From a virus, in the IMG/VR virus record IMGVR_UViG_3300021091_004142, positions 1 through 64,000 of that record: a stretch of DNA of 64,000 nucleotides. One strand, given 5' to 3'. Made by a program: the position numbers and the translations under genes. Below, piece after piece: positions 6,374 to 31,772 of the stretch. How positions within the stretch are numbered: position 1 is the stretch's first letter; every line of letters begins with the position of its first letter. The notes under the pieces were generated by a model. That model made no database searches and had not been told where the DNA came from. It saw nothing but the letters and a program-made list of their open reading frames with translations.

Positions 6374-6381
6374 ATAAGCTC

Positions 6382-7975: not shown

Positions 7976-7980
7976 GAAGA

Positions 7981-8403: not shown

Positions 8404-8436
8404 TTTTAATCTCCATAATTTGAGAATTATTAATAT

Positions 8437-8482: not shown

Positions 8483-8500
8483 CAACATAAGAGGTAAATT

Positions 8501-14842: not shown

Positions 14843-15472
14843 CTACCTACGTCTCTTGCCTACTTTAGGCGTTTCCTGCACAAAAGTATGAAAAGGAGCT
14901 CCAGTGCCTGGATCAAACCTTGCGGCGACGTTGACGGCCTTAAGGGCCAAAGTCTTAGCTTGATTTATGGATATCTTTCTTTTCCCTCTAATGACCTGCA
15001 AGGCACCCAGAGCATAAGAAGACCCTGTGCCTATAGCATAAAAATTCTGCGCATCAGAAGTCCAAGAATAGTCTCCATCAAGTATGTATATTACTCCTGC
15101 AACAGAAATCAAAACAGTAGAATCGTTCTCTGCTATATGCTTTTTTTCATTGGTATCAGGCAAAGCATATCCATGTTGTTCAAAACACTCTCTTATCGAA
15201 GGCACAACCTTAGAAGTAAAAAACTGATCTAACTTTTTACCGACCGTTGCCGGAGGTACAGCCGGAGGCTGATAAACATGATGCAAAAGATTAATCGCCC
15301 TCATGTCTCCCGCCGCACCTAAAAGGTACTTTCCATTCACTGCAACTTTGCCGTTTCCATCTTTCAAAGTAGTAATTTGAGAAATGACACCTTCATCATC
15401 AACGGTAGATATACGCGAATCAGAACAAACCACAGAAAAATTATCGCCCTGTATACCCACTATGGTAGTCAT
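14843..15472 (-). CDS. proteasome beta / HslV-like Ntn-hydrolase peptidase
   Basis: 209 aa beginning MTTIVGIQGD. Removal of Met exposes Thr as N-terminal nucleophile, as in HslV. Counting that Thr as 1, Asp17 lies in CSDSRIS as in proteasomes. A LGAAGD segment follows the first sheet, with Lys36 a candidate for the usual Lys33. AIGTGSSYALGAL matches the AIGSG..YALGAL signature, and RFDPGTG fits the D166-x-x-S169-G position (Ser replaced by Thr). Family enzymes form rings that degrade unfolded or tagged proteins with an AAA+ partner. No propeptide and no alpha-subunit gene are seen. The Ycf46-like AAA+ and ubiquitin-like genes lie 9-16 kb upstream on the same strand, so a shared role is inferred. 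Confidence 0.85.
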   Translation of the reverse strand: MTTIVGIQGDNFSVVCSDSRISTVDDEGVISQITTLKDGNGKVAVNGKYLLGAAGDMRAINLLHHVYQPPAVPPATVGKKLDQFFTSKVVPSIRECFEQHGYALPDTNEKKHIAENDSTVLISVAGVIYILDGDYSWTSDAQNFYAIGTGSSYALGALQVIRGKRKISINQAKTLALKAVNVAARFDPGTGAPFHTFVQETPKVGKRRR

Positions 15473-15493
15473 ATAGCAATACAGTCTAACATA

Positions 15494-15658
15494 CTACAGC
15501 CTAGATTCAGAAGAACTGCTATAATACAAAGAACCAAAAACCTTGTGGGCAATATCATTTACTTCAGAAGATGTGACTGTTTTACAAGAAAGATCTACAA
15601 AAAGTATACGCCTATTTTTATTCCTCCATTTATTCTTCTTCTTGTTTCTCTTTCCCAT
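15494..15658 (-). CDS. small basic protein, 54 aa
   Basis: ATG at 15658, overlapping the end of the KTSC gene by 29 bp. Very basic start (MGKRNKKKNKW) then a natural-looking RRILFVDLSCKTVTSSEV core. It fills the gap before the proteasome-like gene, 22 bp upstream of it. Unknown function. Confidence 0.45.
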   Translation of the reverse strand: MGKRNKKKNKWRNKNRRILFVDLSCKTVTSSEVNDIAHKVFGSLYYSSSSESRL

Positions 15659-15911
15659 GTTGTTTATGTTCCTTAATATTCGACTTTTTATTTATAGTTT
15701 GACAAATATATTTATTCCTTATATTTTTGTTAAAATACTCTCCAACAGAAGGAGACCTAACTAAAGATTCATAAACTTCTTTAGGCACTCCATGATACAT
15801 CCAAGTAGAACCACTAGAAAACTGAACTAAAAGAACCTCACTATTAGAGTCCCAAGAAACATTCTTAATAAACGAACTTGTGCGATAGAAAATAGACCTT
15901 ATTGAACTCAT
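15630..15911 (-). CDS. KTSC-domain protein
   Basis: 93 aa. The central SWDSNSEVLLVQFSSGSTW, then YHGVPKEVYESLVRSPSVG and YFNKNIRNKY match the KTSC domain (about residues 15-68), a short domain of unknown function named for lysyl-tRNA synthetase C-terminal-like proteins. A highly charged Lys/Glu tail follows. Confidence 0.8.
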   Translation of the reverse strand: MSSIRSIFYRTSSFIKNVSWDSNSEVLLVQFSSGSTWMYHGVPKEVYESLVRSPSVGEYFNKNIRNKYICQTINKKSNIKEHKQHGKEKQEEE

Positions 15912-16351
15912 GGGTAACCGTAAAACTCCTTTGTATACTCATTGACATAAAGACCAGCATCAGACACGGTGCCTTGAGTCCTAACTACATAATACATTCC
16001 GTTAGACCACAATGCGCCCTCTACGATTTTTCCTTCTTTATGCTTAGAAGGTACAGTCTTAACATAGTACCATGTTCCATCGTCCAAAAGTTTATATCTG
16101 AATAACTCCAAGGGCACTCTAGAAGATATCTGTTGTTTTGAAGACTCAAAAATATCTATCTTAGAATGAAACACAGCAAAAGTATTTATTAAATCTAAAA
16201 TTTCATCCAAACTGTAATTTAAAGTAGTGTAAGAAACATAAGAAGGAAACATCGTCAAAAACTGCGTATGCAAATAATATGAACTGTCCTCAGAAATAGT
16301 CGAATCTATAGAAGATATAGTTTCTGGAACATGCAATAATATACTAGGCAC
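15908..16351 (-). CDS. hypothetical protein, 147 aa
   Basis: Overlaps KTSC by ATGA and the upstream gene by one base, so it is in a tightly coupled operon. Helical N-terminal half, beta-rich C-terminal half (DGTWYYVKTV, GMYYVVRTQG). No family recognised. Confidence 0.55.
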   Translation of the reverse strand: MPSILLHVPETISSIDSTISEDSSYYLHTQFLTMFPSYVSYTTLNYSLDEILDLINTFAVFHSKIDIFESSKQQISSRVPLELFRYKLLDDGTWYYVKTVPSKHKEGKIVEGALWSNGMYYVVRTQGTVSDAGLYVNEYTKEFYGYP

Positions 16352-16719
16352 TAGACGACCTTATCTTGTAAGATACTTTCCTTCATAAGCAATTTGACAT
16401 AAAGTATTTTCTTCTCTAAAGAATTCAAAAACTTAAGAGTATTTACTCTCCACAAAGATTCCGTTGCCAGTAATTTGTGGATGTCCTCTTTTGGTGCATT
16501 TCTATCCTTCATTTGCTGTAGCAATATCTTTCTACCGGCCTCGCGAGAAGAAATATTGTACTCTACATCTCTTTTTATTGAATACAAACAATAAAACCAT
16601 TTATCAATATTTAAAACCAAAGTTTCCAATTCAGATGAAGTAACCTGTGTTTTGATATCTTTGTTAACCAAAGCTTCAAAAGCCGACAAGTCACTTCGAT
16701 TATACTGCTTTGCCTGCAT
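16351..16719 (-). CDS. hypothetical helical protein, 122 aa
   Basis: All-helical, basic (GRKILLQQMKDRNAPKEDI). Overlaps the UDG-like gene by 20 bp. Could be a small DNA-metabolism accessory; no family recognised. Confidence 0.5.
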   Translation of the reverse strand: MQAKQYNRSDLSAFEALVNKDIKTQVTSSELETLVLNIDKWFYCLYSIKRDVEYNISSREAGRKILLQQMKDRNAPKEDIHKLLATESLWRVNTLKFLNSLEKKILYVKLLMKESILQDKVV

Positions 16720-17470
16720 GATGGGGTTCCTTTTTGATGTGTATATTATTTATATATTTATAAACCTGTACTAAATCAGCAATAAACTGTTCTGTCATGG
16801 ATTCAAACTTTGACGCATAGCCTGGTGAATACATGGGCATCACCATCCAATAACCCAAGGCCGTTAAATTTCCACGATAATCCTTTATTTTTACTTCCGT
16901 GCCAAATAAAACAGAAGTAGCTAAAGATCCCATTGTAATTATAACGCTTGGGCGCAACAGCTGTAACTCAGAATGCAAATAAGGAGCACAATTTATAACT
17001 TCTTGATTTTCGTATTTGACACTCTTTGGACATCTGTTGACGTAAGTTAAACAAAGTTGATCGGATTTAAACCCAACCTGTTTGATTTTGTCAACCAAGA
17101 AACCGATTGAATTTGAATCAAGTGAAGGACTTTCGATCACTATTGCAACTTTAGGATTAGTAGAATTCCATTTCGGCAATTCAGGCTTGGAAGCAATAGC
17201 GCACTTTCTACAATTTAACACAACAGTGTGAAGATCTTTTATGGTAGATTTAGACTTACCAGAAACAAGATCGACTCTTAGTTCGTGTAAGAAAGCGTCG
17301 ATAGAAGATTCAGGCAAATAGTCAGATAATCTTTTTGCGACAACAGACAAAAGCTGCGAGTCACCATGACCAAGGTGATTAACCGCAAAAGCATGAGACT
17401 GACTTGTGCCTTTTTCGGCTAAAGCTTCTTGGATTAACGAATTTAGATTATCTTCGTCAAAATCCGGCAT
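16700..17470 (-). CDS. uracil-DNA glycosylase superfamily protein (divergent)
   Basis: 256 aa. The core (about 85-245) has CRKC, then VAIVIESPSLDSN in place of the GEAPG motif, NRCPK and NCAPYL (further Cys of a possible 4Fe-4S site), LLRPSVIITMGSLA, and MYSPGYASK in place of the HPS motif. The order matches family 4/5 UDGs, which remove uracil from DNA, but both catalytic motifs are degenerate, so activity is uncertain. It shares one base with the SSB gene, consistent with DNA repair or replication. Confidence 0.65.
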   Translation of the reverse strand: MPDFDEDNLNSLIQEALAEKGTSQSHAFAVNHLGHGDSQLLSVVAKRLSDYLPESSIDAFLHELRVDLVSGKSKSTIKDLHTVVLNCRKCAIASKPELPKWNSTNPKVAIVIESPSLDSNSIGFLVDKIKQVGFKSDQLCLTYVNRCPKSVKYENQEVINCAPYLHSELQLLRPSVIITMGSLATSVLFGTEVKIKDYRGNLTALGYWMVMPMYSPGYASKFESMTEQFIADLVQVYKYINNIHIKKEPHHAGKAV

Positions 17471-17892
17471 TAGAAGCTATCTGGAACCGAAGACGAACCT
17501 ACCGTAGCAGTTTCGTTAGTGCTAGAAGACTTTGAAGAACCTGCAGTAGCAGCATAAGAAATATGCTCAGCAACTATGACAACCTTGCTTCTATTCTGAT
17601 CTTCCTGCTTCCATCTTTCCTGAACCAAACGACCAACAATTGTTAGTTTAGAACCTTTCTTGATCTTGGAATCAGAGATTTGACCGTGCATAAAAGATGC
17701 ATTCTTACTTGCAAAACCGTTTGCATCCTTGAGATAATAAACAATATCAAAATAACCAGAATTGTTGTCTCCGCCTTTTTCTTGGCCGGCGTAATCAACC
17801 GCCAAACGAAACTTGGCAATTTTGTCATTGATTAACTCGGGGTCAGCTACGACACCGCCTGTGATGTTGATTAGGTTTCTTGGATCAATCAT
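17470..17892 (-). CDS. ssb: single-stranded DNA-binding protein
   Basis: About 140 aa from the ATG at 17892 (GAGAG upstream). OB-fold pattern: NLINITGGVVADPEL, a KFRLAVDY strand, FDIVYYLKDA, KKGSKLTIVGRLVQERW. A Ser/Thr-rich linker ends in an SSB-type tip, VPDSF. The family coats ssDNA in replication and recruits partners through that tip. Overlaps the upstream gene by 8 bp. Confidence 0.85.
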   Translation of the reverse strand: MIDPRNLINITGGVVADPELINDKIAKFRLAVDYAGQEKGGDNNSGYFDIVYYLKDANGFASKNASFMHGQISDSKIKKGSKLTIVGRLVQERWKQEDQNRSKVVIVAEHISYAATAGSSKSSSTNETATVGSSSVPDSF

Positions 17893-18133
17893 TTTTGTTA
17901 CTCTCTTTTTGGTCAATTAATATTTGTTTAAAATTATATGATATTTCATCTAGAAACTGAGTAGACTGGCGTATGGCTTCCTCTACACCAACTTCTAGTA
18001 TGAGACTATTATACATTGATATAAACAAGTTGTATATACCTGACTTCAACTCAACAACCGAATCCGTAAATATTGGCTCTTCGACCTTATCTACTAAACT
18101 CAAATCTTCTGATTTATCATTACTCATGTTCAT
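17885..18133 (-). CDS. hypothetical helical protein, 82 aa
   Basis: Acidic N-terminus, helical core (EEAIRQSTQFLDEISYNFKQIL). Overlaps the HTH gene (ATGA) and the SSB gene, so it belongs to the same operon. Unknown function. Confidence 0.55.
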   Translation of the reverse strand: MNMSNDKSEDLSLVDKVEEPIFTDSVVELKSGIYNLFISMYNSLILEVGVEEAIRQSTQFLDEISYNFKQILIDQKESNKND

Positions 18134-18423
18134 ACTCTCTTTGAAAAAACTTCGTCAATAATTTGCCCCAAAATCTTAGGATCAGTATAACCCTTGTCGT
18201 ACATGACGGATATTACTGGTTTAGGATCGACGTGACTATAAGTAATAAGCTGAAGATTAAATATGTCATTTAAAGTATACACCCTATAATTGTTTAAATC
18301 TCTTTTGGGAACAGGATACTTGCCAGCTTTTTCTCTATTCGAAACCGTAAGAACAGATATATTCAATATCTCAGCAACTTCAGACCTATTAAAAAATGGT
18401 TCAACAACAACCGTTCTAGCCAT
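18130..18423 (-). CDS. MerR-like HTH regulator
   Basis: 97 aa from the ATG at 18423 (AAGG upstream). FNRSEVAEILNISVLTVSNREKAGKYPVPKR is not quoted in full here but spans residues 12-42 and has the winged-HTH layout of MerR/excisionase-like proteins; YTLNDIFNL follows. First gene of the SSB/UDG operon, with a palindromic operator just upstream, so autoregulation is likely. Confidence 0.7.
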   Translation of the reverse strand: MARTVVVEPFFNRSEVAEILNISVLTVSNREKAGKYPVPKRDLNNYRVYTLNDIFNLQLITYSHVDPKPVISVMYDKGYTDPKILGQIIDEVFSKRV

Positions 18424-18444
18424 TTTATGCACCTTTACTTAACT

Positions 18445-18462
18445 TTATATACGTGTATATAA
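18445..18462. promoter_or_regulatory. palindromic operator upstream of the HTH gene
   Basis: TTATATAC-GT-GTATATAA is a perfect 8-bp dyad with a 2-bp centre, 22 bp before the HTH start codon. A binding site for the HTH protein or a host repressor is likely. Confidence 0.55.
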
Positions 18463-18520
18463 TTAGTAAAGGATAGACCTAAGTTTTGATAGTTGAATAT
18501 GTTAAGCCTTATGTAATAAC

Positions 18521-19735
18521 TTAAACTTCTGTCTTTTTGGACTTTTTAGCCTTCTGTATGAAAGCGGCAGAAACAAATGAATTGTATCTAGACTTTATCG
18601 CAACCAAAGTGCTACTTTCCGAAGATATATTCTTCAATACATTTTCACAAGTAAGATAATTGTATACATACGGCTTAAGGGATATCTTACCGCTATTAAG
18701 GACGTACTGATAATATGCGTCGCCGTCATAATCTCCATTCTCAATCATGTGCGCGATATCTTCTGGATCCTCTCCTTCGTAATAATCATGAGCCCAATCG
18801 TTTAGCCAATCGTAATAAGAAGGATGTTCATACAATTCATCACCTATACCCGATGGCTTGTAAGCACTGGAAGGAAAATGCTGCTCAACAGAAGAAGCGG
18901 GCCAAACAACACTCAAAATTTCTTCTAACGGTATTTTTTCCCACGCAGAAAGTATCGTCATAACTTGAGGGGCGGCGTAGTACACCGCGCCATACGGATT
19001 GGCAAACATGCTCGTATAGTCATTATAAGATACATGCTTAAACACCGTGTCCTTGACAGCACTAGTGTAAGATTCCAAACTGAACCCAGTAGATTCCAAC
19101 TTAGGATATACAGATTGTAAGTTAATGTGAACCACAGCTTCATTCAAGTCATTGTTGGTTCCATTGTTCCAAACCCAATCATAAGCTGACGCAATAACAC
19201 CAGAAATATTCTTCTGATATCTTTCTACATCCTGCATCTCAGCAAAAAAGGGTCTGCACAATTGCCCGTTTGTATAAAAATTGGGCAATGGTGGCAAACA
19301 TAACTGCTGTGTTTCTTCAGTCAATGAAGCAGAAGAAAAGAACATGTTTACGTCTGTTAAATAATAATTAGAATCGAACCTAGCAATATATATCTGCCAT
19401 GGCACAGGAATCCTGTACACATGCATGGTGCTATCAGACATTTTAGAATGTACTTTATCGGTGTTGTAAAAAATGTTTTGATAACACGGGGGGCGCTCAA
19501 ACAGTACATAATTGCTGTCAATAATTCTTACGCCCGGAGGTAAAACACCGGAATTTCTACCATCAAGAACACTACCACTGAACCCAGAAAACACTGTACC
19601 TAACAGATAACTAACAGCATCATAGCCAGAAAAACTAACCGACTCATCGTTATGATCAGTAACGACGACCTTAAAGTTTGTGTTCGTGCTGTGATAAGCG
19701 GTAGTACCATCAAATATTGATATCAAACTTGACAT
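18521..19735 (-). CDS. E2-like protein (PRTRC-B / Prok-E2_D type), paralogue 1
   Basis: 404 aa, GGAG before the ATG. FERPPC (79-84) is followed by a YRIPVPWQIYIA strand (107-118), then QLCLPPLPNFYTNGQLC, putting Cys160 in the place of the E2 catalytic Cys (N-x-x-x-x-G-x-[IVL]-C). This matches my memory of the PRTRC system B / Prok-E2_D layout; I cannot search it. It shares the ERPPC, PW and Cys blocks with the 591-aa neighbour. The C-terminal half (200-404) is unique and Tyr/Asp-rich, with a Lys-rich end (KKSKKTEV). The role would be thioester transfer of the Ub-like protein, or a structural E2 relative. Confidence 0.5.
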   Translation of the reverse strand: MSSLISIFDGTTAYHSTNTNFKVVVTDHNDESVSFSGYDAVSYLLGTVFSGFSGSVLDGRNSGVLPPGVRIIDSNYVLFERPPCYQNIFYNTDKVHSKMSDSTMHVYRIPVPWQIYIARFDSNYYLTDVNMFFSSASLTEETQQLCLPPLPNFYTNGQLCRPFFAEMQDVERYQKNISGVIASAYDWVWNNGTNNDLNEAVVHINLQSVYPKLESTGFSLESYTSAVKDTVFKHVSYNDYTSMFANPYGAVYYAAPQVMTILSAWEKIPLEEILSVVWPASSVEQHFPSSAYKPSGIGDELYEHPSYYDWLNDWAHDYYEGEDPEDIAHMIENGDYDGDAYYQYVLNSGKISLKPYVYNYLTCENVLKNISSESSTLVAIKSRYNSFVSAAFIQKAKKSKKTEV

Positions 19736-19761
19736 ATAATCTCCTATAGAATATTGGTTTA

Positions 19762-19854
19762 TTAAGACAAATAATAAGCAAATAAACCCTCAATCGCTGC
19801 AACAAGTATTGCGCCGATTGCGGTCAGTATAGCTGCAATAATTACTGGATCCAT
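19762..19854 (-). CDS. TM micropeptide, 30 aa
   Basis: ATG at 19854 with AAAGAG upstream; one hydrophobic helix (MDPVIIAAILTAIGAILVAA). It sits alone between the two E2-like genes and is not a fragment of either. Confidence 0.5.
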   Translation of the reverse strand: MDPVIIAAILTAIGAILVAAIEGLFAYYLS

Positions 19855-19875
19855 TATGTTATATCTCTTTCTATT

Positions 19876-21636
19876 TCAACTAACCCTAATATAATTCATC
19901 GCTTCATTAATACGATGCACTATCTGTGAATTACTCTTTGAAAGCTTTTGCTTAGATTTTGGAGAATTTCCAAGAGAAGCAAGCCTATCTAACAAATTAG
20001 CCTTGAAACTATCATAATAATTAATAAGATCTTGTTTGGTATAAAATGTGTATGTCTTTTCTTTACAATCAGCGTGAACAAAAAAAGTATCTGAAGTTTG
20101 ATTCTTCAACTGAGAATAAAACTCCATTAAAGGCGCAAAATCAAATCCTTGACTCTCAAGAATACTATACGCATCGTCTACTCTATACAAATCCATTTTT
20201 TTAACTTGAGACCTATTGATATTTTTAAATAAATAAACTATTGTATAATTAGAATAATAAGAAGATGCTTTTTCTATGGTGCAACGAGGATCATTTGCAG
20301 CCACTGCCTTAACAAGCGGATCTTGAATACAAAGACCAAGTTCACCCATCGTTATAGGCCTATTTACAGATTGCGACTGAAATACGCTACTAAGCAAAGG
20401 ATCAATAGTATGTGCGGGACTAAATGAAGGATCTTCGTCATCAAAAACATCTTCCATGTCATCAAAAACTTGTTCCCGTCGATCATTAATTGCATCCTGA
20501 AAATCCTCTTCTTGATTGAAAAGTTCAAACTCAATATCTGCACAATACTCTTTGACAACCTCAGAAAACTTCTGGGCAACACACGAAAGTAGAGAATAAA
20601 CATTCTTTTTATTCTTGCTATTCTTCTTATTCTGTACCTCAACATCCTTAACAACGTCACCAATTTGTTTGTAGAAAGACAAAGTCTCTTCCAACGACAA
20701 TAAAGACATAAAAGACAATAATTTTACGTAATCGTAATTACTGATATAGGAATCATATTGTGCATTTGAAACAACATCCAATGCCTTGGATCTAGAAAAA
20801 TTAAACTTGTTAATTACAACAGAAACCAACCTATCGTAAAACTCAGGATAAGATTGAGGATTTCTGTACATATCTACCAAAGGATACTTAGATTTATAAT
20901 CTCCTTCTAAGATCTGATTAACTATCCCAGCTTCTCCCACGTTAGTTCTACCAGACAAAGCATACAATGGTCTTGATATCAGGTCATTGTTCCATCCACC
21001 TAACATGTAATCATTAAAAATCATAGAATGCCAGTATCTATAATCAAAAGTATTAAAGTCGGACTGATCTTTTACATGAGTCAATAAATTTGAAAAAGAA
21101 CCAGACCAACATATTCTTGCATCTGAATGCGTATTGGGAAACAAAGAATTAATATACATTTGAGTAGAAGAAGACAACGCAGAATGAGAATAATAAATCC
21201 TTACATCGCCTGGATCATATTTATTTATGAACGTAACTGGCATTATTGTTATTGTCCAAGGTACCCATATAAACAAATCTTCAACTTCCGGAGCGCTGTG
21301 CGACGCTCTCGCATTTTTGTATTTAACATTAATTCTGCATGGTGGGCGTTCAATATAATAAGACTGAGACTTGTCTACGTATCTAACTGCCATAGGCAGT
21401 ATATGCCGTTTCGAACGCATCTGTAAATTATAGTCCTGCTGATCGTAAATCAGCTCAGTAGGAACAACATACTGTAGAGACACTAATGACTGAACGAGAA
21501 AATCAAAACTGTCTTCTGGAAATAATTCACTTGCTGCTCTTACGCAAGAATAATAACCAGTTATTGATGTGTTCCTTACCTGAAACCAATTAGAATTGTC
21601 AGGTGAATACTGCACTATATTATACACGCCTGGCAT
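19876..21636 (-). CDS. E2-like protein (PRTRC-B / Prok-E2_D type), paralogue 2
   Basis: 586 aa from the ATG at 21636, which has GAGAGGAG upstream. IERPPCRINVKY matches paralogue 1; VPWTITIMPV is the following strand; then LFPNTHSDARICW puts a Cys (about 176) at the E2 active-site position after a Pro-Asn pair. The ~350-residue C-terminal extension contains a very acidic segment (DDMEDVFDDEDPSF) and a basic end. Alone or with paralogue 1 it may carry the Ub-like protein to virion or host targets. Confidence 0.45.
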   Translation of the reverse strand: MPGVYNIVQYSPDNSNWFQVRNTSITGYYSCVRAASELFPEDSFDFLVQSLVSLQYVVPTELIYDQQDYNLQMRSKRHILPMAVRYVDKSQSYYIERPPCRINVKYKNARASHSAPEVEDLFIWVPWTITIMPVTFINKYDPGDVRIYYSHSALSSSTQMYINSLFPNTHSDARICWSGSFSNLLTHVKDQSDFNTFDYRYWHSMIFNDYMLGGWNNDLISRPLYALSGRTNVGEAGIVNQILEGDYKSKYPLVDMYRNPQSYPEFYDRLVSVVINKFNFSRSKALDVVSNAQYDSYISNYDYVKLLSFMSLLSLEETLSFYKQIGDVVKDVEVQNKKNSKNKKNVYSLLSCVAQKFSEVVKEYCADIEFELFNQEEDFQDAINDRREQVFDDMEDVFDDEDPSFSPAHTIDPLLSSVFQSQSVNRPITMGELGLCIQDPLVKAVAANDPRCTIEKASSYYSNYTIVYLFKNINRSQVKKMDLYRVDDAYSILESQGFDFAPLMEFYSQLKNQTSDTFFVHADCKEKTYTFYTKQDLINYYDSFKANLLDRLASLGNSPKSKQKLSKSNSQIVHRINEAMNYIRVS

Positions 21637-21650
21637 AAAAACTCCTCTCA

Positions 21651-22916
21651 CTATATAAGAGACAATATAAAGCTTTTCTTCTCAACGGGTGTCTCAGTAG
21701 AAGGAGGCACTTCAAGAGAAACCAACGTGGAAGACACTTCCTCTGGACAAGAAGAAACAACCTCATTGACCACAGAATCAATTTCAGAAACTACTTGATC
21801 ATAAGGTGCGTCTACGGGAGGAACCAAAGTATAAGACACCTGATCATTTTCAGGATTGATCAAATTAAAAACCTTATTTCCCTTGTAATCTGTATGCTCA
21901 TAAAGATCAAAAGATAATGATCCTTTACCCTTAGAAGTGTACTTCTTTCGTAGCACAGAACTAGACTTATAATAAGGACAGATAGTTTGGTTTGGAGTCA
22001 AACCAAAGCCACAATAAGATGCTTTGTCAGGCTTAGATAAAGCAGAATGCGTACAAATGCAAATGTTTTCCGGACGATTTGCATAAGCATAATCCTTGCT
22101 GACTATATCTACGTTTTGAGTTTTCAAGCTAAAATAAGAACATATTGAAAACTGCGACATGGACTCTTCCTCCTCTAATATTATATCGGTATGAAATATT
22201 GGTGCGTTACTTTGACCCTTACTATTAAAAACACTAAATGCTTCATGACCTTTAGTCTTATTCGGCGACAAATTTGTTGTCTTCATCTTCTTGATTGCCT
22301 TAGTGAGTTTCTCAATATCATTACTAAGTTTATCTGATAAATTCTTAGATTGATCACTGGATACGACAAAATTTTTCATAGAGCCTACATAAAACATATG
22401 CCCTATCATAATTTCCCAGCCATCATAAAATTCAGATATGTGACGCTTAAAATTCAACGTATAATCAGCCTGAAATGGATCACTAAAAGATATCTGGACT
22501 GCGTATACAAATCCATGTGGATATTCAGTGTTAATCAACGGAGAAGATTTCCAAACATTATTGATATGGACATACAAAGGTAATGAATTAGACTTAATTC
22601 CATTCATTATATTAGCTTTGGAAATATAAAAACTACCGGTATTAAATAAATCAAATATGATAATTTCGTCAATAGAATGACCCTCATCCAACTCCGCGGC
22701 ACTATTAACATAATTAGGATTTATTGGATACACATAAAAATTCATAACAGAATTTAATTGTATAAGCAAGTTCCCCGCCGGTTCTCCTGTATCGACACTG
22801 GGAGAACAAGGAATCTCCAGTTTCAAATAAGTCACCTCATCTAAATTTATCTGAGGTTTACCTATAAAAGCGTAATCCAATAAACTTGCTTCGGCAACAC
22901 TGCTATCGTTATCCAT
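21651..22916 (-). CDS. unknown 421-aa protein with Cys/His cluster
   Basis: Beta-rich N-terminal half; a Cys/His cluster at about 285-325 (NICICTHSALS, CGFGLTPNQTICPYY) that could bind zinc; an acidic, Val/Ser/Glu-rich C-terminus. It lies between the E2-like and AAA+ genes in the same orientation with a short gap, so it is probably part of the same transcription unit. No family recognised. Confidence 0.5.
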   Translation of the reverse strand: MDNDSSVAEASLLDYAFIGKPQINLDEVTYLKLEIPCSPSVDTGEPAGNLLIQLNSVMNFYVYPINPNYVNSAAELDEGHSIDEIIIFDLFNTGSFYISKANIMNGIKSNSLPLYVHINNVWKSSPLINTEYPHGFVYAVQISFSDPFQADYTLNFKRHISEFYDGWEIMIGHMFYVGSMKNFVVSSDQSKNLSDKLSNDIEKLTKAIKKMKTTNLSPNKTKGHEAFSVFNSKGQSNAPIFHTDIILEEEESMSQFSICSYFSLKTQNVDIVSKDYAYANRPENICICTHSALSKPDKASYCGFGLTPNQTICPYYKSSSVLRKKYTSKGKGSLSFDLYEHTDYKGNKVFNLINPENDQVSYTLVPPVDAPYDQVVSEIDSVVNEVVSSCPEEVSSTLVSLEVPPSTETPVEKKSFILSLI

Positions 22917-22926
22917 AACATTCTCC

Positions 22927-23679: not shown

Positions 23680-23960
23680 AACGCCTCCAATGAATAAAGT
23701 TCGATTTTTTGAGATTTAAGATAATCTAAAAACGAAGTATTAGCCAAATGCAAAGATCTAAACTCCGGATAAACAGTTTTAACACAAGCGTATATTTCAG
23801 AAAGATAACTTAAATGATTTAACAAAACGTGATTGTATCTATCTAGAAACAGTACGCATTCGTGATCATTGACCAAGGTCAGATAGCTTTTCTGCAACCA
23901 CGTCTGCAATGGCTTGTCCAATTTTTTTGTCGCCGTCTGCCACAAAAGATTGTGTTCCAT
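23676..23960 (-). CDS. unknown protein, up to 94 aa
   Basis: The natural-looking part begins near base 23895 (YLTLVNDHECVLFLDRYNHV); the ATG at 23960 would make it overlap the coiled-coil gene by 95 bp, so a TTG start near 23870-23895 may be used. Helical; unknown function. Confidence 0.4.
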   Translation of the reverse strand: MEHNLLWQTATKKLDKPLQTWLQKSYLTLVNDHECVLFLDRYNHVLLNHLSYLSEIYACVKTVYPEFRSLHLANTSFLDYLKSQKIELYSLEAL

Positions 23961-24246
23961 CCTGCATTACCTCCAACATAGACTTTCTTGCCTCTTTCAA
24001 AGTATCACGAAAAGACTTTTGGGCTTCAACGGTAGAAAAAGCTATCTGACCTATCAAAGCTTCCATAAAAACAGCCTGTTCGCCGTACGCCAAAACTAAA
24101 GTAGCAATCTGTTTTTCGACTGCTTCTACTCTCTGTTCGATATCCTTTTGAACCGAAGTGACTTCTTTGGCGAGAACGTTCAACATATTATCAATTGCAA
24201 TTTGTATGGTAGAAAAGTCAGTATCATAATTTCCCTGTTCGGTCAT
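23866..24246 (-). CDS. coiled-coil protein, 126 aa
   Basis: Starts at ATG 24246, overlapping the upstream stop. Long amphipathic helices (KEVTSVQKDIEQRVEAVEKQ; SFRDTLKEARKSMLEVMQ), no Cys. Possibly a scaffold or adaptor for the neighbouring AAA+ protein; this is inference. Confidence 0.55.
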   Translation of the reverse strand: MTEQGNYDTDFSTIQIAIDNMLNVLAKEVTSVQKDIEQRVEAVEKQIATLVLAYGEQAVFMEALIGQIAFSTVEAQKSFRDTLKEARKSMLEVMQDGTQSFVADGDKKIGQAIADVVAEKLSDLGQ

Positions 24247-24866
24247 ACGGCATACCAATCTGATTTGTTTGCCACGTGAGATATCAACGAAAGATTCAAC
24301 ATATGAGAGATGCTGACTATTTCTGATCTAGTAACCTTTATGCTATCAACGGACAAAGAAGATTTCATGTCCGGGATGAATGCACCTGACTCAGTTTTTC
24401 TAGCAGCAAAATGACCGCACTTCCAAACAAACGCAGAAGAATCAAAACTATTATCGGAATTCTGCCAATAATGAGACTTGAAAATCCTAGAAATAGGTTT
24501 TGACTCTATTATGCCTCCACCGTAAGAAACAAAACCTTCATCGGTTGGAATACCGGTTTTGCTGTTTGCGGGAAAATTTATGCTTCCTATACCAATAGCA
24601 ATAGAATTTAAATAACCAGAAAAATCTATGGCATCTAAATATACCATCGTGCTAGAAATGAGTTTGCCATCGGGCGAAGTTTTACCTATGTCCAGCTTAA
24701 ACTTAAGACCTTGATACCAAGGCCTTATGGACAAAAATCCACTTTGAGTTTTAGACCTAAACCATTTCTTGTAAAGATCTTTCTCGTAATCTTTCTGTAA
24801 GATATCAGATACAACAGGCTCAGCAGTCTGAGACATCTGATATTCTATTTGATCCATGTCTGACAT
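24243..24866 (-). CDS. unknown 207-aa protein next to the AAA+ gene
   Basis: Start at ATG 24866 with GGAG four bases upstream. Beta-rich middle (MVYLDAIDFSGYLNSIAIGIG). It lies 8 bp after the AAA+ stop, so it is translationally linked to it and may be a cofactor. No family recognised. Confidence 0.5.
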   Translation of the reverse strand: MSDMDQIEYQMSQTAEPVVSDILQKDYEKDLYKKWFRSKTQSGFLSIRPWYQGLKFKLDIGKTSPDGKLISSTMVYLDAIDFSGYLNSIAIGIGSINFPANSKTGIPTDEGFVSYGGGIIESKPISRIFKSHYWQNSDNSFDSSAFVWKCGHFAARKTESGAFIPDMKSSLSVDSIKVTRSEIVSISHMLNLSLISHVANKSDWYAV

Positions 24867-24874
24867 ATGTCTCC

Positions 24875-26473
24875 TTATATTTTCCAAGTAACCTGCGGCT
24901 GATCAACGGTACGACCAGATAGTACGTTTTGTGCATCGATCTGTTGTTCAGAAGAAGCCCAATCCCATTGTGCCAAGGCATAACTGTACATTGATTTTAT
25001 CATATCTCTATGTTTATTCCAAATTATGTTCTTAACATTAGGGGCATGAGCCATAATGTCCTGGGTGTTGATTGCACGAAATTCATCGGCAACAACAAAG
25101 AACTTGACTTCTTTAATCAAAGCAGAAATCTCTGCACCGGTGAAATTTTCGGTTACTCTTGCAAGGGCATCATAATCGTACTCGTGATCGGTATCTATAC
25201 CAGACAAATATATCTTTAGTATCTCTACACGCTCACTGTAAGATGGCAAACCAACGAACACTATCTTGTCGAAACGATCAGCGCGAAGCATCTCTGGTCG
25301 CAAATTATCAAGTTGATTTGCGGCACACATCAAAAATGTATCTTCTGGTAATTCCTGTAATCCAGTTAAGAACTCGCCATGGACACGATCTGTGGTACCG
25401 GCGTCAACTTGTGACGAACTCGAACCACCAGAAAGATCACGACCAAACTCGTCAATCCAAACGCACAAAGGCGTCATAGCTCTAATCTGATTAAACACCG
25501 CACGCATGTTGGCTTCTGACTGACCAACAAAAGAATTCATGACTTGGCTGATGCCGGTTCTGGCAAGATCAAGCCCAAGTTCACTAGCGGTAGCTTGACA
25601 GATGGCCGACTTGCCAGTGCCGGGGACACCAACCATCAATATTCTTCTGATTGGAGACACACCAAAAGACTCAGCTTTCTGTCTATTGTTCCTAAGGAAA
25701 GCGGTACGTTTGATTATGTTCTTGATGTTATCAAGACCACCGATTTCGGCAAATGTCAACCGAGGCTTTATGATCTCAAGAATGCCCTTTTGTTTAACGG
25801 TGGCCATCTTTCTCTCGTATATGTACTTTGGATCCAAAAGACCGTTGTCGACTATTGAAGTCAAACAATAATCGATGAAATCAGTTTCCGTTAGACCAAT
25901 GCCAGATTTTACGAGATCTTTTACGGTTTCTGGATTAACAAAACGACCATGTGAAGACACATTAATATGATCCACAATGTGGAACAACTCTTCGGAAGTG
26001 GGAACTCCATGACCTATGACTTTGAAAAGGTTGGGATAATCAACAGGCACATCGAAAGCGGAAAGAAATATGAACTGCATTTCTTCATACATGGTGTCGG
26101 TCCAAAAGGACTTGCGATACTTTTCAACAAGTTGATACACCATAGGCACGTACCTAAACAAATTAACCTCTGGCTTGCCATGTATGGGAAGCAAAAACGT
26201 AGGCGCCTTGCCTCCAGAAACGGTATTATTCTTTATATGATTTACGGCAATAGATAAATCATAAGTGTGAACATGAGCGACTGTGCCTGATTCGTCAGTA
26301 AATTCTACGAGCACCGGTTTCCAATCTGAATCAACGTACTTGGAAAACCCTTGCTGTGGATCTATCATATAATAGTCTCTGAAATCAAAAGACACGATAT
26401 TACTAATAACCCTAGAATACTCAGTGGTTTTTATCCATAAAGCAGGATAACCAATCTTTATTTCGTTTAACAT
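24875..26473 (-). CDS. AAA+ ATPase, Ycf46-like
   Basis: 532 aa. N-terminal region (1-45, GYPALWIKTTEYSRV) resembles the Ycf46-type start of plastid/cyanobacterial AAA proteins. AAA core 235-425: EIGGLDNIK, Walker A GVPGTGKS (282-289), the sensor-region segment FVGQSEANMRAVF, Walker B CVWIDEF (337-343), and RADRFDKIVF with the Arg finger. A Gly/Ser loop (349-354) resembles the Ycf46 insertion before an RVHGEFLTGLQE helix. Such rings unfold or remodel proteins. The C-terminus (VTWKI) lacks a canonical HbYX proteasome-docking tail. Its place beside Ub-like, E1 and JAMM genes suggests it handles modified proteins, perhaps feeding the beta-type peptidase at 14.8 kb. Confidence 0.85.
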   Translation of the reverse strand: MLNEIKIGYPALWIKTTEYSRVISNIVSFDFRDYYMIDPQQGFSKYVDSDWKPVLVEFTDESGTVAHVHTYDLSIAVNHIKNNTVSGGKAPTFLLPIHGKPEVNLFRYVPMVYQLVEKYRKSFWTDTMYEEMQFIFLSAFDVPVDYPNLFKVIGHGVPTSEELFHIVDHINVSSHGRFVNPETVKDLVKSGIGLTETDFIDYCLTSIVDNGLLDPKYIYERKMATVKQKGILEIIKPRLTFAEIGGLDNIKNIIKRTAFLRNNRQKAESFGVSPIRRILMVGVPGTGKSAICQATASELGLDLARTGISQVMNSFVGQSEANMRAVFNQIRAMTPLCVWIDEFGRDLSGGSSSSQVDAGTTDRVHGEFLTGLQELPEDTFLMCAANQLDNLRPEMLRADRFDKIVFVGLPSYSERVEILKIYLSGIDTDHEYDYDALARVTENFTGAEISALIKEVKFFVVADEFRAINTQDIMAHAPNVKNIIWNKHRDMIKSMYSYALAQWDWASSEQQIDAQNVLSGRTVDQPQVTWKI

Positions 26474-26515
26474 AAAATACTGCTTTCTATTGTATTAAAT
26501 ATCGCCTTTATATAA

Positions 26516-26557
26516 GAGTGGGGGAAACCATTTGAAAGGTTATGGTCCCCCCCACTC
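26516..26557 (-). promoter_or_regulatory. strong hairpin between Ub-like and AAA+ genes
   Basis: GAGTGGGGG (26516-26524) pairs with CCCCCACTC (26549-26557), extended by ACCAT/ATGGT inside. On the minus transcript it follows the Ub-like stop and is followed by TTATATAAA rather than a pure T tract. It may attenuate read-through or protect the Ub-like mRNA end, keeping that small protein in excess. Confidence 0.6.
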
Positions 26558-26572
26558 AAACCTTGAACTATA

Positions 26573-26824
26573 TCAGCCCTTCTCGCCTGCGCGACGGTGG
26601 AACTCCACGTTGTCGCCTGGCTGGATGACATAGTTTTCATCAAGTTTGTCCTTGCCTTTGTAGGCAACAGCGTCCGTGGGAATGCCCCACAGTCGAGAAA
26701 ACTGCTCTCTTGCCTGAGAAACTGTTTTACCTCCAATGTTGCTTGGCTGATTGTATACACCAAAGCGAACATTGGCAATACCTTGCGATGCAGAAGGTTG
26801 ATTCTGCGATGCTGACTGATCCAT
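26573..26824 (-). CDS. ubiquitin-like beta-grasp modifier
   Basis: 83 aa, AGGAG upstream. After a Gln/Ser-rich leader, residues 21-80 show the beta-grasp pattern: VRFGVYN strand, SQAREQFSRLWGI helix, AVAYKG strand, then VIQPGDNVEFHRRAGEKG. The final Gly is exposed without processing, like the ends I recall for PRTRC-C / Prok_Ub proteins. It is directly followed upstream by the E1 gene (25-bp gap) and downstream by the AAA+ gene. The expected role is conjugation through its C-terminal Gly. Related sulfur-carrier proteins share the fold, but the JAMM, E2 and RING-like genes favour a modifier. Confidence 0.75.
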   Translation of the reverse strand: MDQSASQNQPSASQGIANVRFGVYNQPSNIGGKTVSQAREQFSRLWGIPTDAVAYKGKDKLDENYVIQPGDNVEFHRRAGEKG

Positions 26825-26849
26825 TTTATTCTCCTATTGTGTTGTTGTT

Positions 26850-27608
26850 TTATACCATCGCAGGTTGATTGACCTGCGAAACCATTCTGTTGTAGGGCTC
26901 AGATTTTCCCAAACCCAAATCAAAATAGATTTCGGTTTCTTCGGGACTTTGATCTAGAACAATGGTCTTATGAACCCTACCAAGTATGAATGCGGCCACC
27001 GCCATATTGGTAGCCAATAATTGCGTACCGCCCTCAAGCTTAGATCTTTCCTGACAAGAAAGTTCGCCTGGATTTTTGTCAGGAGGATTTTCATATTCAG
27101 GATGAAAAACGACAGGATGTTCAGTTATGTTCTTGCCATCTCTTCTTTGGTAATGATAGATGGAACCGAACAAAGCATCGTCGTTACCGCCTGTGAATAC
27201 ATCGACGTTTATAAGTTTTGCAGCGGCGTCGAAAAGTATCTTGCGAGCAGCAAAATTATCGACGACAGCAAAAACAACGTCGCCGTCAATCAACAAGTCG
27301 GAAGCCTTAATTCTGGGAGAATCACTATCAGCGGAAACTCCAGTGTTGTCGTCAGACACGACCCACTTTGGTACCGGTATGATCGTGGTCTTGGGAAACT
27401 GAGGCGTCAACTCGGCCGCTTTCACAACAGCCTTGTTGCCTAACTTTGTAAAATCCTGGCGCTCCTTGTTCTTCTCTTCGTAGTTGTCTCCGTCTACGAG
27501 AATCAAACCAGAACCAGGCATTTTCCATTCCAAAAGACGTACAAGACCAGCAGCAAGCCACGTGCCTATGCCGCCTGTACCTACGATAACAAATCTTTTT
27601 GATTGCAT
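26850..27608 (-). CDS. E1-like (ThiF/UBA) activating enzyme
   Basis: 252 aa from the ATG at 27608 (AAGG upstream). GTGGIG at 10-15 binds ATP. VDGDNYEEKNKERQD carries the D...N..RQ motif of adenylating E1/MoeB/ThiF proteins. VVDNFAARKIL supplies the ADP-site Asp. Cys185 in PGELSCQERSKLEGG is the candidate thioester Cys. The family adenylates the C-terminal Gly of a Ub-like partner. The protein is compact, like prokaryotic E1s of Ub-like operons rather than eukaryotic UBA1. It sits between the JAMM and Ub-like genes. Confidence 0.85.
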   Translation of the reverse strand: MQSKRFVIVGTGGIGTWLAAGLVRLLEWKMPGSGLILVDGDNYEEKNKERQDFTKLGNKAVVKAAELTPQFPKTTIIPVPKWVVSDDNTGVSADSDSPRIKASDLLIDGDVVFAVVDNFAARKILFDAAAKLINVDVFTGGNDDALFGSIYHYQRRDGKNITEHPVVFHPEYENPPDKNPGELSCQERSKLEGGTQLLATNMAVAAFILGRVHKTIVLDQSPEETEIYFDLGLGKSEPYNRMVSQVNQPAMV

Positions 27609-27620
27609 TTTATCCACCTT

Positions 27621-29393
27621 CTATCTAATTTCGTCATTATATTGAATTTCAGCAAAAGAATTTGCATAATGTTCATAATTGCTGCAACCATTGACGGAAT
27701 GTGTGTAAAGAATAATGTTGAAACTATCTTTAGACCTTACCCATTCTGTCAAAAGCTCTCTAAACGCAGGGCATTTGATGGAATAAAAATGGGTACAATC
27801 ATGGCATGGAGAATTCGGAACATATATATCAGCATTTTCAGCCAAATAACTATCAAAATCCACAACATCATCGGGCATCAGTCTCACGGCACAAACGCAA
27901 TCAGCTTCAGCATTCTCTATCCTTACACCACAACAAGCAGTATGTCCAGAGCTGAAAGCACTGTCTATGGGTATTACGTCCTCTGTATGTGTTGGCAAAT
28001 GAACATAATCAGACAGGTCAGAAACATCCGCCTTTTTGACGGTAGAATTCTGAACGATAGGCTTCATTGCCGTACCCGTATAATATCTCAATTCGTCACT
28101 GATATTCATTATGCTTGGAAGATTATCATCCGTAAACGAATACAAATAAACGGGAGTAGTATACGGCAAATAATTGTCGATCAAATAAGACTCTACCTTT
28201 TCAACAATCGTAGACATATGGTCTTCTGGATGAACAAGGGGAACTTCGCATGTGGGACACAAACCGATTCTTACATCGGAGATATTAATCTCGGTTTCGC
28301 ACACAAGACAATGTCCTCTGTTCCGCTCATCAAGCTCTGCCTCAATAGCCAGAACGGCGTTGTACGGCATATGATAAGCTGCCAGCATATCCTCGTACTT
28401 TTCCAGAAATCTGGCCTGCTTCAAAGGAGTTCTAGATCCCCCAACCGCCTTCCCAGTCTGAAGCCCAGGCTGCTGTTGTGGTGTCGTCGTTTGAGTTGTT
28501 TGCGTGTGCCGACCATTTTGAATGGTGTTGTATCCCCCCTGGTAGGGGGGGTAGGCTTTTTTTACTTTAGTGGACCACTCCACAACTTCAGGATCAGGAT
28601 CTTTCTGCACCGTTACAGTTTCAAAAACATCTTCCATGTCAAGTTTGTATCCTGTGCCTGCCATTTGTAACTCGGCATAATACTGTGTGGCACCATTGTT
28701 TACATTCTTTTGCCAACCATAGGTTATGTGTAAACCATCAAAATCAGCTTGATCGTCATGATCTGTGCCTGAAGCATAGGCAGGCATATCCGGGTGCGAA
28801 TGTACCGAACCAACAATCATGACGTTCTCGGGCTTTAATGCAACGATGCTGTCGGCATCATACTTGCAATGGGCTGCGGTGTTTGTTTGTTCCGGAACCA
28901 GAACACCCCAACCTGCTGGTCCGGTCTTGGTAGTATCGTATGTAAGTATAACGATTGATTCCGTACCGTGCTGTGAGTGTACAAGCCTAAAGAACTCATC
29001 CAGCTTATTGACAACATCAATGGGAATGAGGGGCATGCTATAAGTACATTCGTCTTCAATGTCAATGAATTCAGCAGGAAACTCGTCATTACTTACCGCA
29101 ACTACCCTACCTACGTAATTGTTTACGACCTTGAAAAGTCTAGGCTTCTTTTCTATCTTTATCGACGTAACGGTTGAATTTCCATAAGTGGTATAACCAT
29201 AATTATGCGGCGACGCAGAAGGAGTACTATTTGTGACCGACTTGGTTTCGGTTTTGTGGTTCGAAAGCAAATAATATATTTGAAAACCCATATTCTCCAC
29301 GACATCGCATATGTCTTGACGATCTGCGATAAAACATGGAACACCTGAAGGCATCCAAAAATGCTTCAGGTCATTCAGTTGTGGTACTGTCAT
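27621..29393 (-). CDS. JAMM/MPN metallo-isopeptidase with Cys-rich C-terminus
   Basis: 590 aa, GGAGG before the ATG. The JAMM motif is exact: HSHPDMPAYASGTD at 198-211 gives H198-x-H200-x7-S208-x2-D211, with Glu145 a candidate for the upstream catalytic Glu. A first N-terminal domain (1-100) is unassigned. A Gln/Thr linker (about 300-325) leads to a zinc knuckle CLVC...CPTC and more Cys pairs (CCGV, CVC, CHDC) in the last 120 residues. Such enzymes remove Ub-like proteins (Rpn11, CSN5) or process their ends. The extra zinc modules may bind substrate. It lies between E1 and the RING-like gene. Confidence 0.85.
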   Translation of the reverse strand: MTVPQLNDLKHFWMPSGVPCFIADRQDICDVVENMGFQIYYLLSNHKTETKSVTNSTPSASPHNYGYTTYGNSTVTSIKIEKKPRLFKVVNNYVGRVVAVSNDEFPAEFIDIEDECTYSMPLIPIDVVNKLDEFFRLVHSQHGTESIVILTYDTTKTGPAGWGVLVPEQTNTAAHCKYDADSIVALKPENVMIVGSVHSHPDMPAYASGTDHDDQADFDGLHITYGWQKNVNNGATQYYAELQMAGTGYKLDMEDVFETVTVQKDPDPEVVEWSTKVKKAYPPYQGGYNTIQNGRHTQTTQTTTPQQQPGLQTGKAVGGSRTPLKQARFLEKYEDMLAAYHMPYNAVLAIEAELDERNRGHCLVCETEINISDVRIGLCPTCEVPLVHPEDHMSTIVEKVESYLIDNYLPYTTPVYLYSFTDDNLPSIMNISDELRYYTGTAMKPIVQNSTVKKADVSDLSDYVHLPTHTEDVIPIDSAFSSGHTACCGVRIENAEADCVCAVRLMPDDVVDFDSYLAENADIYVPNSPCHDCTHFYSIKCPAFRELLTEWVRSKDSFNIILYTHSVNGCSNYEHYANSFAEIQYNDEIR

Positions 29394-29421
29394 ATCATAT
29401 CCTCCTCAATTTGTTATTTAA

Positions 29422-30207
29422 TTAAACTATTTCTTTAGAGAAATATCCTACATAGCCGTGACTTTTGATTTGAGCCTGTAAATAAATTGCAGGCACTAAC
29501 ACTTCAACATCATCGTCTGTAGGCTTTTTGTAGTAAGTCTCAACCAATTGTATATATTTTGTCTCGATATCACCCAAAGAATCAGCAACACAAGACAAAC
29601 TTTCTATATTAATATTAGTTGATATCTTATTTATAAATTTATTATAATCAAATGGATTTTCTGAATAACAAGAAGAACAAATCTTAGTAGCATAAAGATA
29701 AACACTATCGGTATGCTCTAGTTGAAGCCTATCCTTCAAAGCAAAGAATGCGTCTGAATGATGCGTGCTAGTTATTTCATCTATAACTATCGGTTTGATT
29801 TGATACATGTCAACTTCTGAAACTGCTTCGCCACACAGACACATCATAGGGTGATACCAATGAGTACTAGAACAAGAATTACAAATAAGATGTTTACAAT
29901 GATTAGTATCTTTAAATTCGTGAACATGAGAATAATGTTCTTTTGGAGGTATATCAACAAGACATAATTTACATTTTGAAATATCATCTATGTAATCTTT
30001 TTTACAAGTACTACAAATAACAACAGGCATATCAGAAAAATTATTGAAAGCCTCTTGATTTTGGTACCAAATATTAAAACTTTCATACGGATTAGACTTA
30101 TTATAATTTTCTTCAAAACAAAAATGTACTTGACCGCAATTTGAACAAACAGCCAAGTAATCCCCATCTTTAGAATACCAAAATCCAGTAGTATTGGAAT
30201 AGACCAA
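29422..30207 (-). CDS. RING-like C3HC4 protein, candidate E3
   Basis: 261 aa from a TTG. After a first zinc pair (CSNC 21-24; C65, C68), residues 79-125 read C79-x2-C82-x21-C104-x-H106-x2-C109-x2-C112-x10-C123-x-C125. This is the RING-HC order and spacing, except that the last pair is C-x-C rather than C-x2-C. RING domains hold an E2 and position its Ub-like cargo. The frame has no ATG, GTG or TTG between 30312 and 30208, yet is open throughout, and a -1 slip at the E2-like stop would join the two. Confidence is moderate: a non-RING zinc ribbon is the main alternative. Confidence 0.5.
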   Translation of the reverse strand: MVYSNTTGFWYSKDGDYLAVCSNCGQVHFCFEENYNKSNPYESFNIWYQNQEAFNNFSDMPVVICSTCKKDYIDDISKCKLCLVDIPPKEHYSHVHEFKDTNHCKHLICNSCSSTHWYHPMMCLCGEAVSEVDMYQIKPIVIDEITSTHHSDAFFALKDRLQLEHTDSVYLYATKICSSCYSENPFDYNKFINKISTNINIESLSCVADSLGDIETKYIQLVETYYKKPTDDDVEVLVPAIYLQAQIKSHGYVGYFSKEIV

Positions 30208-30308
30208 TGTAGTATTGTCAAAATCAACAGTATCAATACTGCCAGTTATGTAGTCTTGAGCCAGTATTGTAAGTGGTACACCATCGAAAGTCTCTTTAGA
30301 ATTTATAT

Positions 30309-31388
30309 CTAAAAAGGACCTTCTTCTCCCCCTTGATCATGGTCGTCATCATCATGATCTTCATCTTCTTCGGACTCAGACTCTTCAAACAACTGACCTT
30401 GGTTAACTTCTTTTCTAGAGTCTCTAAACTTCTTACTATCCTCCATTATGTCCCTACCAACATACTGTGTTGAAGAATTATTGTAAGACTGTACAAAATA
30501 GTTGGTAATATCGGTAATTACGCTCTCTCCATTGCGCTGCAATGCATTTATGGGTTTCAATGGCATCTTATCAGTGTAATAAGATTTGTATGTACCAGTC
30601 AAAGCCATTGAAAATGTAAGCGGAACAGCTTCAGAAGAAGTTGAATGTGCTGCCTGCCGGTCGAGACCCTCAACTACAACAGGAATCCACGGGGCAAACA
30701 AAGTCCACTCATAACCGTCCTGAGATGTTTTGTTCTGCCAAACGCTGGGATTCCACATGTAGGAAAAAGAAGCATCGTTCTGGTACATGTCTCGATAGAA
30801 TCTCGGACCGTCAGTTTCCGACATATTGTTGTCGTTGTATGCTTCAGAACCGGAACAACGCTCCAAAGCAAGCGCCAAACGCTCATTAAACGTCAGACTA
30901 CTCCAATCGGTATTATGATACAAACAAATCCATCCAACGCCATTGCCGCGGTACCCTCTGCAATTTATGTTGGGAAGATTAACATGATACAACTGGACAT
31001 CTGGATGCGTAACAGGGGTAGTGGTGTAAAACGTTCTAGCACCCAACAAATTGTTGGACTTAAAATCTATTATAACCACTCGATAAGGTTGCGCCAAAAG
31101 ATACTTTTTGGCTTCAGGATCCTTTTCGTATGTCCCCCAGTTAACATAATAACTACCTGGTTTGTACTGGTAGGCAACCTGTGTGTATTCGCCTGCTTTG
31201 CGAACACAAAGCAAACCAGTTCCGTCCAACGGTAACAAACCAGTATCAAAGGCAGCATACTGTGAAAACTGCAAATAAAAAGAACGAATGTCTTTGTCCG
31301 TTACATGATCAAGGTTGAATGCCTGTACCTTGGAACGAAAGACAATGCTATCTTCTTGCTTTACAAATGAGTAAGACACTTTGTCCAT
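30309..31388 (-). CDS. E2-like (UBC-fold) conjugating enzyme
   Basis: 359 aa. The core (about 65-185) has AQPYRVVIIDF, VTHPDVQLYHVNLPNIN, then GVGWICLYHNTDWSSLTFNE. Eukaryotic E2s read HPNIN...G.ICL......W.P.LT, so Cys155 sits at the thioester position. The HPN His is Leu here (LPN) while Pro and Asn remain. The order of strands also matches Prok-E2_D. The C-terminus is extremely acidic (SESEEDEDHDDDDHD). It is the first gene of the run E2-RING-JAMM-E1-Ub-AAA. It ends GGT CCT TTT TAG, a T5 run suited to -1 slippage. Confidence 0.7.
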   Translation of the reverse strand: MDKVSYSFVKQEDSIVFRSKVQAFNLDHVTDKDIRSFYLQFSQYAAFDTGLLPLDGTGLLCVRKAGEYTQVAYQYKPGSYYVNWGTYEKDPEAKKYLLAQPYRVVIIDFKSNNLLGARTFYTTTPVTHPDVQLYHVNLPNINCRGYRGNGVGWICLYHNTDWSSLTFNERLALALERCSGSEAYNDNNMSETDGPRFYRDMYQNDASFSYMWNPSVWQNKTSQDGYEWTLFAPWIPVVVEGLDRQAAHSTSSEAVPLTFSMALTGTYKSYYTDKMPLKPINALQRNGESVITDITNYFVQSYNNSSTQYVGRDIMEDSKKFRDSRKEVNQGQLFEESESEEDEDHDDDDHDQGGEEGPF

Positions 31389-31409: not shown

Positions 31410-31772
31410 TTATTCTTCTGTTAGAATTTGCTCAATACCTTTGTCTATGTCTTCTTTGAAATCACCAAAAGCCAAAGCAAACCAATTCGGATCCTTTTCT
31501 GCGGCATTGATAACCGACAACTTTGAATCCAATGTATTATAAATTTCTACCAAATCAGACAAACGATCTAAAGCTTTAGATAATTTTTTAAGGTCTTCTC
31601 TGGTAGGATTCATATTGAGAATGAACTTCAATATCGGTGCGTCATTTATCGTAAAATGATCGACTATCTTTTCTATCCTAGACTCTACGCTAGAAACTTG
31701 CTCCTCCAAAGAATCCTTGGCTTTTGCAGCCATGGCAAAAGAAAAATTGAAACTTTCTATGTTAGACGACAT
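31410..31772 (-). CDS. helical protein, 120 aa
   Basis: Starts at ATG 31772 (AAAGGG upstream), overlapping the previous stop. Two coiled-coil stretches (SSVESRIEKIVDHF; LSKALDRLSDLVEIYNTL). Directly upstream of the E2-like gene (21-bp gap). Unknown function, probable partner in the same unit. Confidence 0.5.
   Translation of the reverse strand: MSSNIESFNFSFAMAAKAKDSLEEQVSSVESRIEKIVDHFTINDAPILKFILNMNPTREDLKKLSKALDRLSDLVEIYNTLDSKLSVINAAEKDPNWFALAFGDFKEDIDKGIEQILTEE

Follow-up and report, generated by a model that had tools for sequence, protein, structure and literature searches.

The stretch analysed here (the window) comprises 64,000 nucleotides, positions 1 to 64,000 of the IMG/VR virus record IMGVR_UViG_3300021091_004142, a record 108,625 bases long. 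A block of genes on its minus strand, lying at short gaps or overlapping, had been read in an earlier note, from the letters alone, as a ubiquitin-like (Ub-like) conjugation and proteolysis system made up of E2-like, RING-like, JAMM, E1/ThiF, Ub-like, and AAA+ proteins and, further down, a proteasome beta-like peptidase of the HslV type. All seven genes lie where that reading placed them, on that strand (Table 1). Two more E2-like genes, which it had overlooked, are listed as E2-2 and E2-3.

Table 1. Genes of the block and associated features in the window
Feature	Position	Strand	Basis or occurrence
Conserved protein g141, first block gene	31410..31835	-	36/40 E1-anchored loci
E2-1, E2-like, PNIN...C155, acidic C-terminal tail ending GPF	30309..31388	-	hhalign to 404-aa paralogue; invariant Cys
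Cys-rich (putative zinc) protein, 261 aa	29422..30207	-	15 Cys; no strict RING pattern
JAMM (JAB) metallopeptidase, N-terminal domain, Cys-rich region at C-terminus	27621..29393	-	Prok-JAB 1.6e-6
E1-like ThiF adenylyltransferase, candidate catalytic Cys188	26850..27617	-	Pfam ThiF 1.2e-11
Ub-like modifier, 83 aa, GEKG end	26573..26824	-	AlphaFold model, Foldseek, hhalign, invariant C-terminus
AAA+ ATPase (CDC48/PAN-type module) with N-terminal domain	24875..26473	-	Pfam AAA 2.7e-23; NCBIfam CDC48 6e-35
Conserved protein g214, downstream of AAA+	24243..24887	-	40/40 loci
E2-2, E2-like paralogue, 591 aa (FPNTHSDARICW)	19876..21651	-	hhalign to 404-aa paralogue 98.9%
E2-3, E2-like paralogue, 404 aa (LPNFYTNGQLC)	18521..19735	-	hhalign to PRTRC_B 88.9%
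Phage SSB, tail VPDSF	17470..17916	-	Pfam SSB 5.9e-9; terminal F in 20/20
HslV/proteasome-beta-like peptidase, accessory, not obligate	14843..15472	-	Pfam 4.4e-8; phrog_1040 3e-23
WhiB domain (host marker)	39881..40081	-	exceeds Pfam cut-off in each of 15 phage records tested

Components of the block

The E1/ThiF, JAMM, AAA+, and HslV/proteasome beta-like identities were upheld by the profile matches in Table 1, and the JAMM residues E145, H198, H200, S208, and D211 were invariant in 23 relatives. The 83-aa protein had no family match in the Pfam and NCBIfam profile searches. Its AlphaFold (AF2) model was a beta-grasp of modest confidence (pLDDT 69), for which the PDB matches listed by Foldseek were almost all parkin Ubl, SUMO, ISG15, and ubiquitin, and its GEKG was invariant, at the C-terminus or two residues before it, in agreement with its description as a Gly-ending beta-grasp protein. 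In four relatives (L024, L032, L047, and L122), two residues follow GEKG; these proteins would have to be trimmed, and the JAMM peptidase may be responsible.

The motif from which E2-1 had been called E2-like is real: LPNIN is followed by GWIC155L, with C155 invariant in 23/23. The N...C arrangement is likewise conserved in E2-2 and E2-3, the Cys being unchanged in 20/20 relatives for each. E2-1 was named by none of the profile libraries searched (Pfam and NCBIfam among them). At the level of sequence, its assignment as a putative E2 is based on homology to the 404-aa paralogue E2-3 (hhalign 89.6%, 1.9e-6) and on alignment with human E2s, in which PNIN...ICL faces PNINSNGSICL of UBE2D2 with the Cys in register. 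E2-2 is also homologous to E2-3, and hidden Markov models of these 591- and 404-aa proteins reached ~1e-7 against E2-1 from L047, a distant contig. When a profile built from just four human E2 sequences was compared with 22 families, the three E2-like families ranked 1 to 3, none of them significant alone. Foldseek against viral models matched the E2-1 model to one uncultured-phage protein, 50% identical, with two weaker matches. Profiles of E2-1, Ub, and E1 were also searched against PDB sequences and yielded no informative match.

The Cys-rich protein is the positional equivalent of a C-terminal domain that is fused to E2-1 in most relatives; it is a separate gene in the window and is missing in L003. 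The strict RING consensus, C-x2-C-x9-39-C-x1-3-H-x2-3-C-x2-C-x4-48-C-x2-C, was absent from the window protein, whose last pair is C-x-C, and from all relatives, so the RING-like C3HC4 label was dropped; the sole RING-type signal was a sub-threshold RING/IBR match in L047. The Ycf46-like label given to the AAA+ protein found no support; its best NCBIfam matches are to the CDC48, PAN, and FtsH types, and its gene adjoins Ub in 40/40 loci anchored on E1. A Ycf46/Ycf35-type module was also considered; the AAA+ genes of Rhizobium, Agrobacterium, Rhodobacter, and Mycobacterium phages have neighbours with no match to the conserved proteins g214, g130, and g94, and no such module can therefore be claimed.

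Relation to PRTRC cassettes and other known systems

The prediction of PRTRC-type Ub-like systems dates from 2006, the plasmid PRTRC cassette, which has been little studied, being type 6d of Iyer et al. (PMC1779556). No report on PRTRC function was found in the literature searched, which did not extend to subscription papers and preprints. Phage family profiles were compared with those from ten PRTRC operons, and only four of the 154 comparisons exceeded 20%, each being the expected pair: E1 with PRTRC_ThiF (97.7%), E2-3 with PRTRC_B (88.9%, E 2.4e-6), JAMM with PRTRC_A (73.4%), and Ub with PRTRC_C (38.1%, E 3e-4). Within these alignments, C188 of E1 faced the Cys of PRTRC PSCS, and the invariant R96 of JAMM fell near an Arg of PRTRC_A, the conserved Trp of JAB-N being unmatched. 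E2-3, which also had a weak match to Pfam Prok-E2_D (0.069), ties the E2-like trio to the PRTRC_B/Prok-E2_D family.

Both systems have a Ub-like protein with a C-terminal KG, a ThiF E1, an E2_D, and a JAB, four cores that pair one to one, and phages and plasmids share the gene order E2-JAB-E1. The phage block differs in its three E2-like paralogues, the added AAA+ gene, the position of Ub after E1, and the fusion of the Cys-rich domain to E2-1, and its scores are far under the PRTRC cut-offs (for E1, 22 bits to NCBIfam PRTRC_ThiF against a cut-off of 144.75). The block is very probably a phage-borne form of the conjugation system known from plasmid PRTRC cassettes, one that has diverged and contains three paralogous E2-like proteins. 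The likeness to PRTRC-type operons that the earlier note had pointed out for a phage conjugation and deconjugation set is well supported.

The earlier note knew of no phage set so complete, but phage PRTRC-type sets are already in GenBank, in Burkholderia phage BgVeeders33 and Bacillus phage vB_BauM_KLEB27-3. BgVeeders33 is likewise a phage record and encodes PRTRC E, C, F, B, A, and ThiF; it differs in being canonical PRTRC in a 33-kb genome, with no AAA+ annotated in the cassette. The complete canonical E-C-F-B-A-ThiF series lies at 5252-9738 of locus L169 and is annotated mostly as hypothetical. KLEB27-3 is, like the source of the window, a large phage, with a ThiF E1, a PRTRC_A JAB, an E2_D-like protein (gp196), and a Prok_Ub protein among gp194 to gp199, whereas only one E2 was found, the modifier is a four-fold tandem repeat, and the lineage is separate, tblastn with E1 showing no direct similarity at the threshold used. 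Its gp199 (718-1425 of locus L170), a phage poly-Ub-like precursor beside E2-, JAB-, and E1-like genes, is made up of four Prok_Ub repeats in tandem, all with KAGVKG at their ends. CBASS Cap2/Cap3, Bil, and Bub are likewise bacterial E1/E2/JAB-type conjugation or deconjugation systems but belong to (putative) host immune operons, and no window protein matched their Pfam or NCBIfam profiles above cut-off. Keyword searches of a jumbo-phage survey from 2021 and a review from 2026 turned up no mention of phage Ub-like sets.

Conservation and phage setting

The block occurs on about 45 contigs of IMG/VR. Relatives were collected by scanning with the E1 alignment (40 loci), with E2-1 and g214, and from SSB as an anchor. 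In the E1-anchored loci, Ub, E1, AAA+, g214, g130, and g94 were present in 40/40, JAMM in 39/40, and E2-1 in 37/40; loci without JAMM or E2-1 were cut by contig ends, and the full set was found in 37/37 of those extending to E2-1. The E2-1 and g214 scans yielded no untruncated locus without the set. From the SSB side, E1, Ub, and AAA+ were found in 40/40 close relatives with sufficient upstream sequence; two remote SSB matches (32 and 26% identity) do not carry this trio. Loss of the set where flanking genes are kept, which according to the earlier note would speak against the system, was therefore not seen, and the tagging machinery proved fixed throughout the relatives open to checking. In the deep members L118 to L122, the JAMM gene is in two pieces and extra genes lie between Ub and AAA+. 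Chance origin was rejected because the catalytic residues are invariant and the gene order is conserved across contigs. A scan of host genomes with the E1 alignment returned one contig only, L047, from a metagenome-assembled genome and possibly a misbinned virus. A single 267,766-base IMG/VR contig holds two diverged copies of the block (L028 and L033), reflecting either a chimera or a true duplication.

The window record belongs to a tailed phage, since a large terminase was matched at 85883-87220 of the record (phrog_2, 1.4e-31); the terminase of actinophage DSL-LC01, used as a query, matched no relative. A contig of 209,701 bases (L002) is near-identical to the window across the block. Among 14 control genomes, the WhiB domain was matched in Corynebacterium only, and given its presence in all 15 phage records tested (Table 1), the hosts are probably Actinomycetota. 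Elsewhere in the window are a subtilase-like protein (38272-39684) and a surface-type protein (1012-3750) whose TTTTVPP linkers are rich in Thr.

Predicted function and targets

E2-1 ends in Pro-Phe in 19/23 representatives (related sequences, hence not independent events), and 18 of these have at least one acidic residue in the preceding six; among other open reading frames of the same loci, the share ending PF is ~0.5%. The acidic PF tail is kept on the E2 part where the Cys-rich domain has been split off (window) or lost (L003). The C-terminal tip of SSB (SSB-Ct) is recognised by SSB-interacting pockets through its C-terminal Phe, penultimate Pro, and acidic residues (PMC10164576). The tip of E2-1 suggests recruitment to DNA-metabolism proteins, and mimicry of SSB-Ct by this tail is a tentative proposal that falls somewhat short of probable. 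It is doubtful whether such an E2, carrying its own SSB-tip mimic, delivers the modifier to replication and repair enzymes that dock on SSB, with the separate E2-like paralogues serving different substrates.

Each part of a conjugation system appears to be present in the sequences and models, and its chemistry can be predicted from the families concerned. The ThiF-type E1 would activate the C-terminal Gly of the 83-aa modifier, which would then move to the Cys of at least one of the three E2-like paralogues and be attached to proteins; the JAMM peptidase would remove it or trim extended precursors. The AAA+ protein would probably remodel conjugates or complexes, with degradation as a possibility only. 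The targets may be DNA replication and repair proteins, as the acidic Pro-Phe tip of E2-1 resembles SSB-Ct and the block lies beside phage SSB and UDG genes. A PRTRC-type phage conjugation system aimed at such proteins is the likely, and overall the best, explanation.

Several observations weigh against it. Compared directly with PRTRC_B, E2-1 scored 0.05% in hhalign, which is not significant, and its AlphaFold model (pLDDT 78) found no PDB match in Foldseek, to an E2 or otherwise; its UBC fold is therefore putative. Ub matches PRTRC_C weakly. For PRTRC E, F, and ParB, the phage block offers no counterpart, no phage family exceeding 20% against them, so the block is a relative of PRTRC and not a member by the curated models; in L047, a DUF6551/DGQHR protein near the set has a sub-threshold ParB-like match. 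The PF tail is absent from the deep members (L047 and L118 to L122), and two further window proteins end in PF, namely TTVAPF (52747-53784, minus strand) and SSDAPF (56458-57063, minus strand). Given these two proteins, Pro-Phe tips may be a broader recruitment signal in this phage.

The earlier note had joined modification and degradation in one pathway, possibly tagging host or antiviral proteins for destruction; the tagged proteins would be unfolded by AAA+ and destroyed by the HslV/proteasome-like peptidase. The conjugation set is well supported, but degradation of conjugates by this route now appears unlikely. A CDC48/PAN-type AAA+ gene does adjoin Ub, and in most relatives the block also encodes an HslV-type protein whose N-terminal residue is Thr, present in 11/15 related records with conserved spacing. 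However, it is absent from four records of 78 to 194 kb forming a subclade (L017, L018, L020, and L021) that retains the Ub set and the neighbouring genes, and DSL-LC01, whose HslV is 47% identical, has no E1 match. AAA+ homologues are also common in phages without an E1 match, and the AAA+ C-terminal tails (WKI, FKW, WK, and others) carry no HbYX-type motif. The subclade, DSL-LC01, and the missing motif together indicate that a degradation branch is optional or unrelated.

Bacterial Ub-like systems function in antiphage defence (PMC10097602), and these are large phages with probable actinobacterial hosts, which could favour a counter-defence role in which the modifier disables host immunity (CBASS or other Ub-like systems) or competes with the Pup-proteasome of actinobacteria. 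This seems improbable, since the set is invariant between relatives, unlike typical counter-defence genes, and is sited among replication genes, and since Pup is absent from the phages (0/10 phage records). An alternative that involves no protein conjugation, namely a ThiS/ThiF-type pathway of the sulfur-carrier or metabolic kind, in which a ThiF-type E1 and a small beta-grasp protein also occur, is very unlikely in view of the three E2-like families with an invariant Cys, the intact JAMM, and the one-to-one PRTRC matches.

The PRTRC-type set does not vary across this lineage of large actinophages and lies beside replication genes, and its function can therefore be tested during infection. The proposed SSB-Ct mimicry offers a targeting hypothesis open to point-mutation tests. 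If the predicted conjugation is true, Ub-like protein tagging would extend to bacterial viruses.

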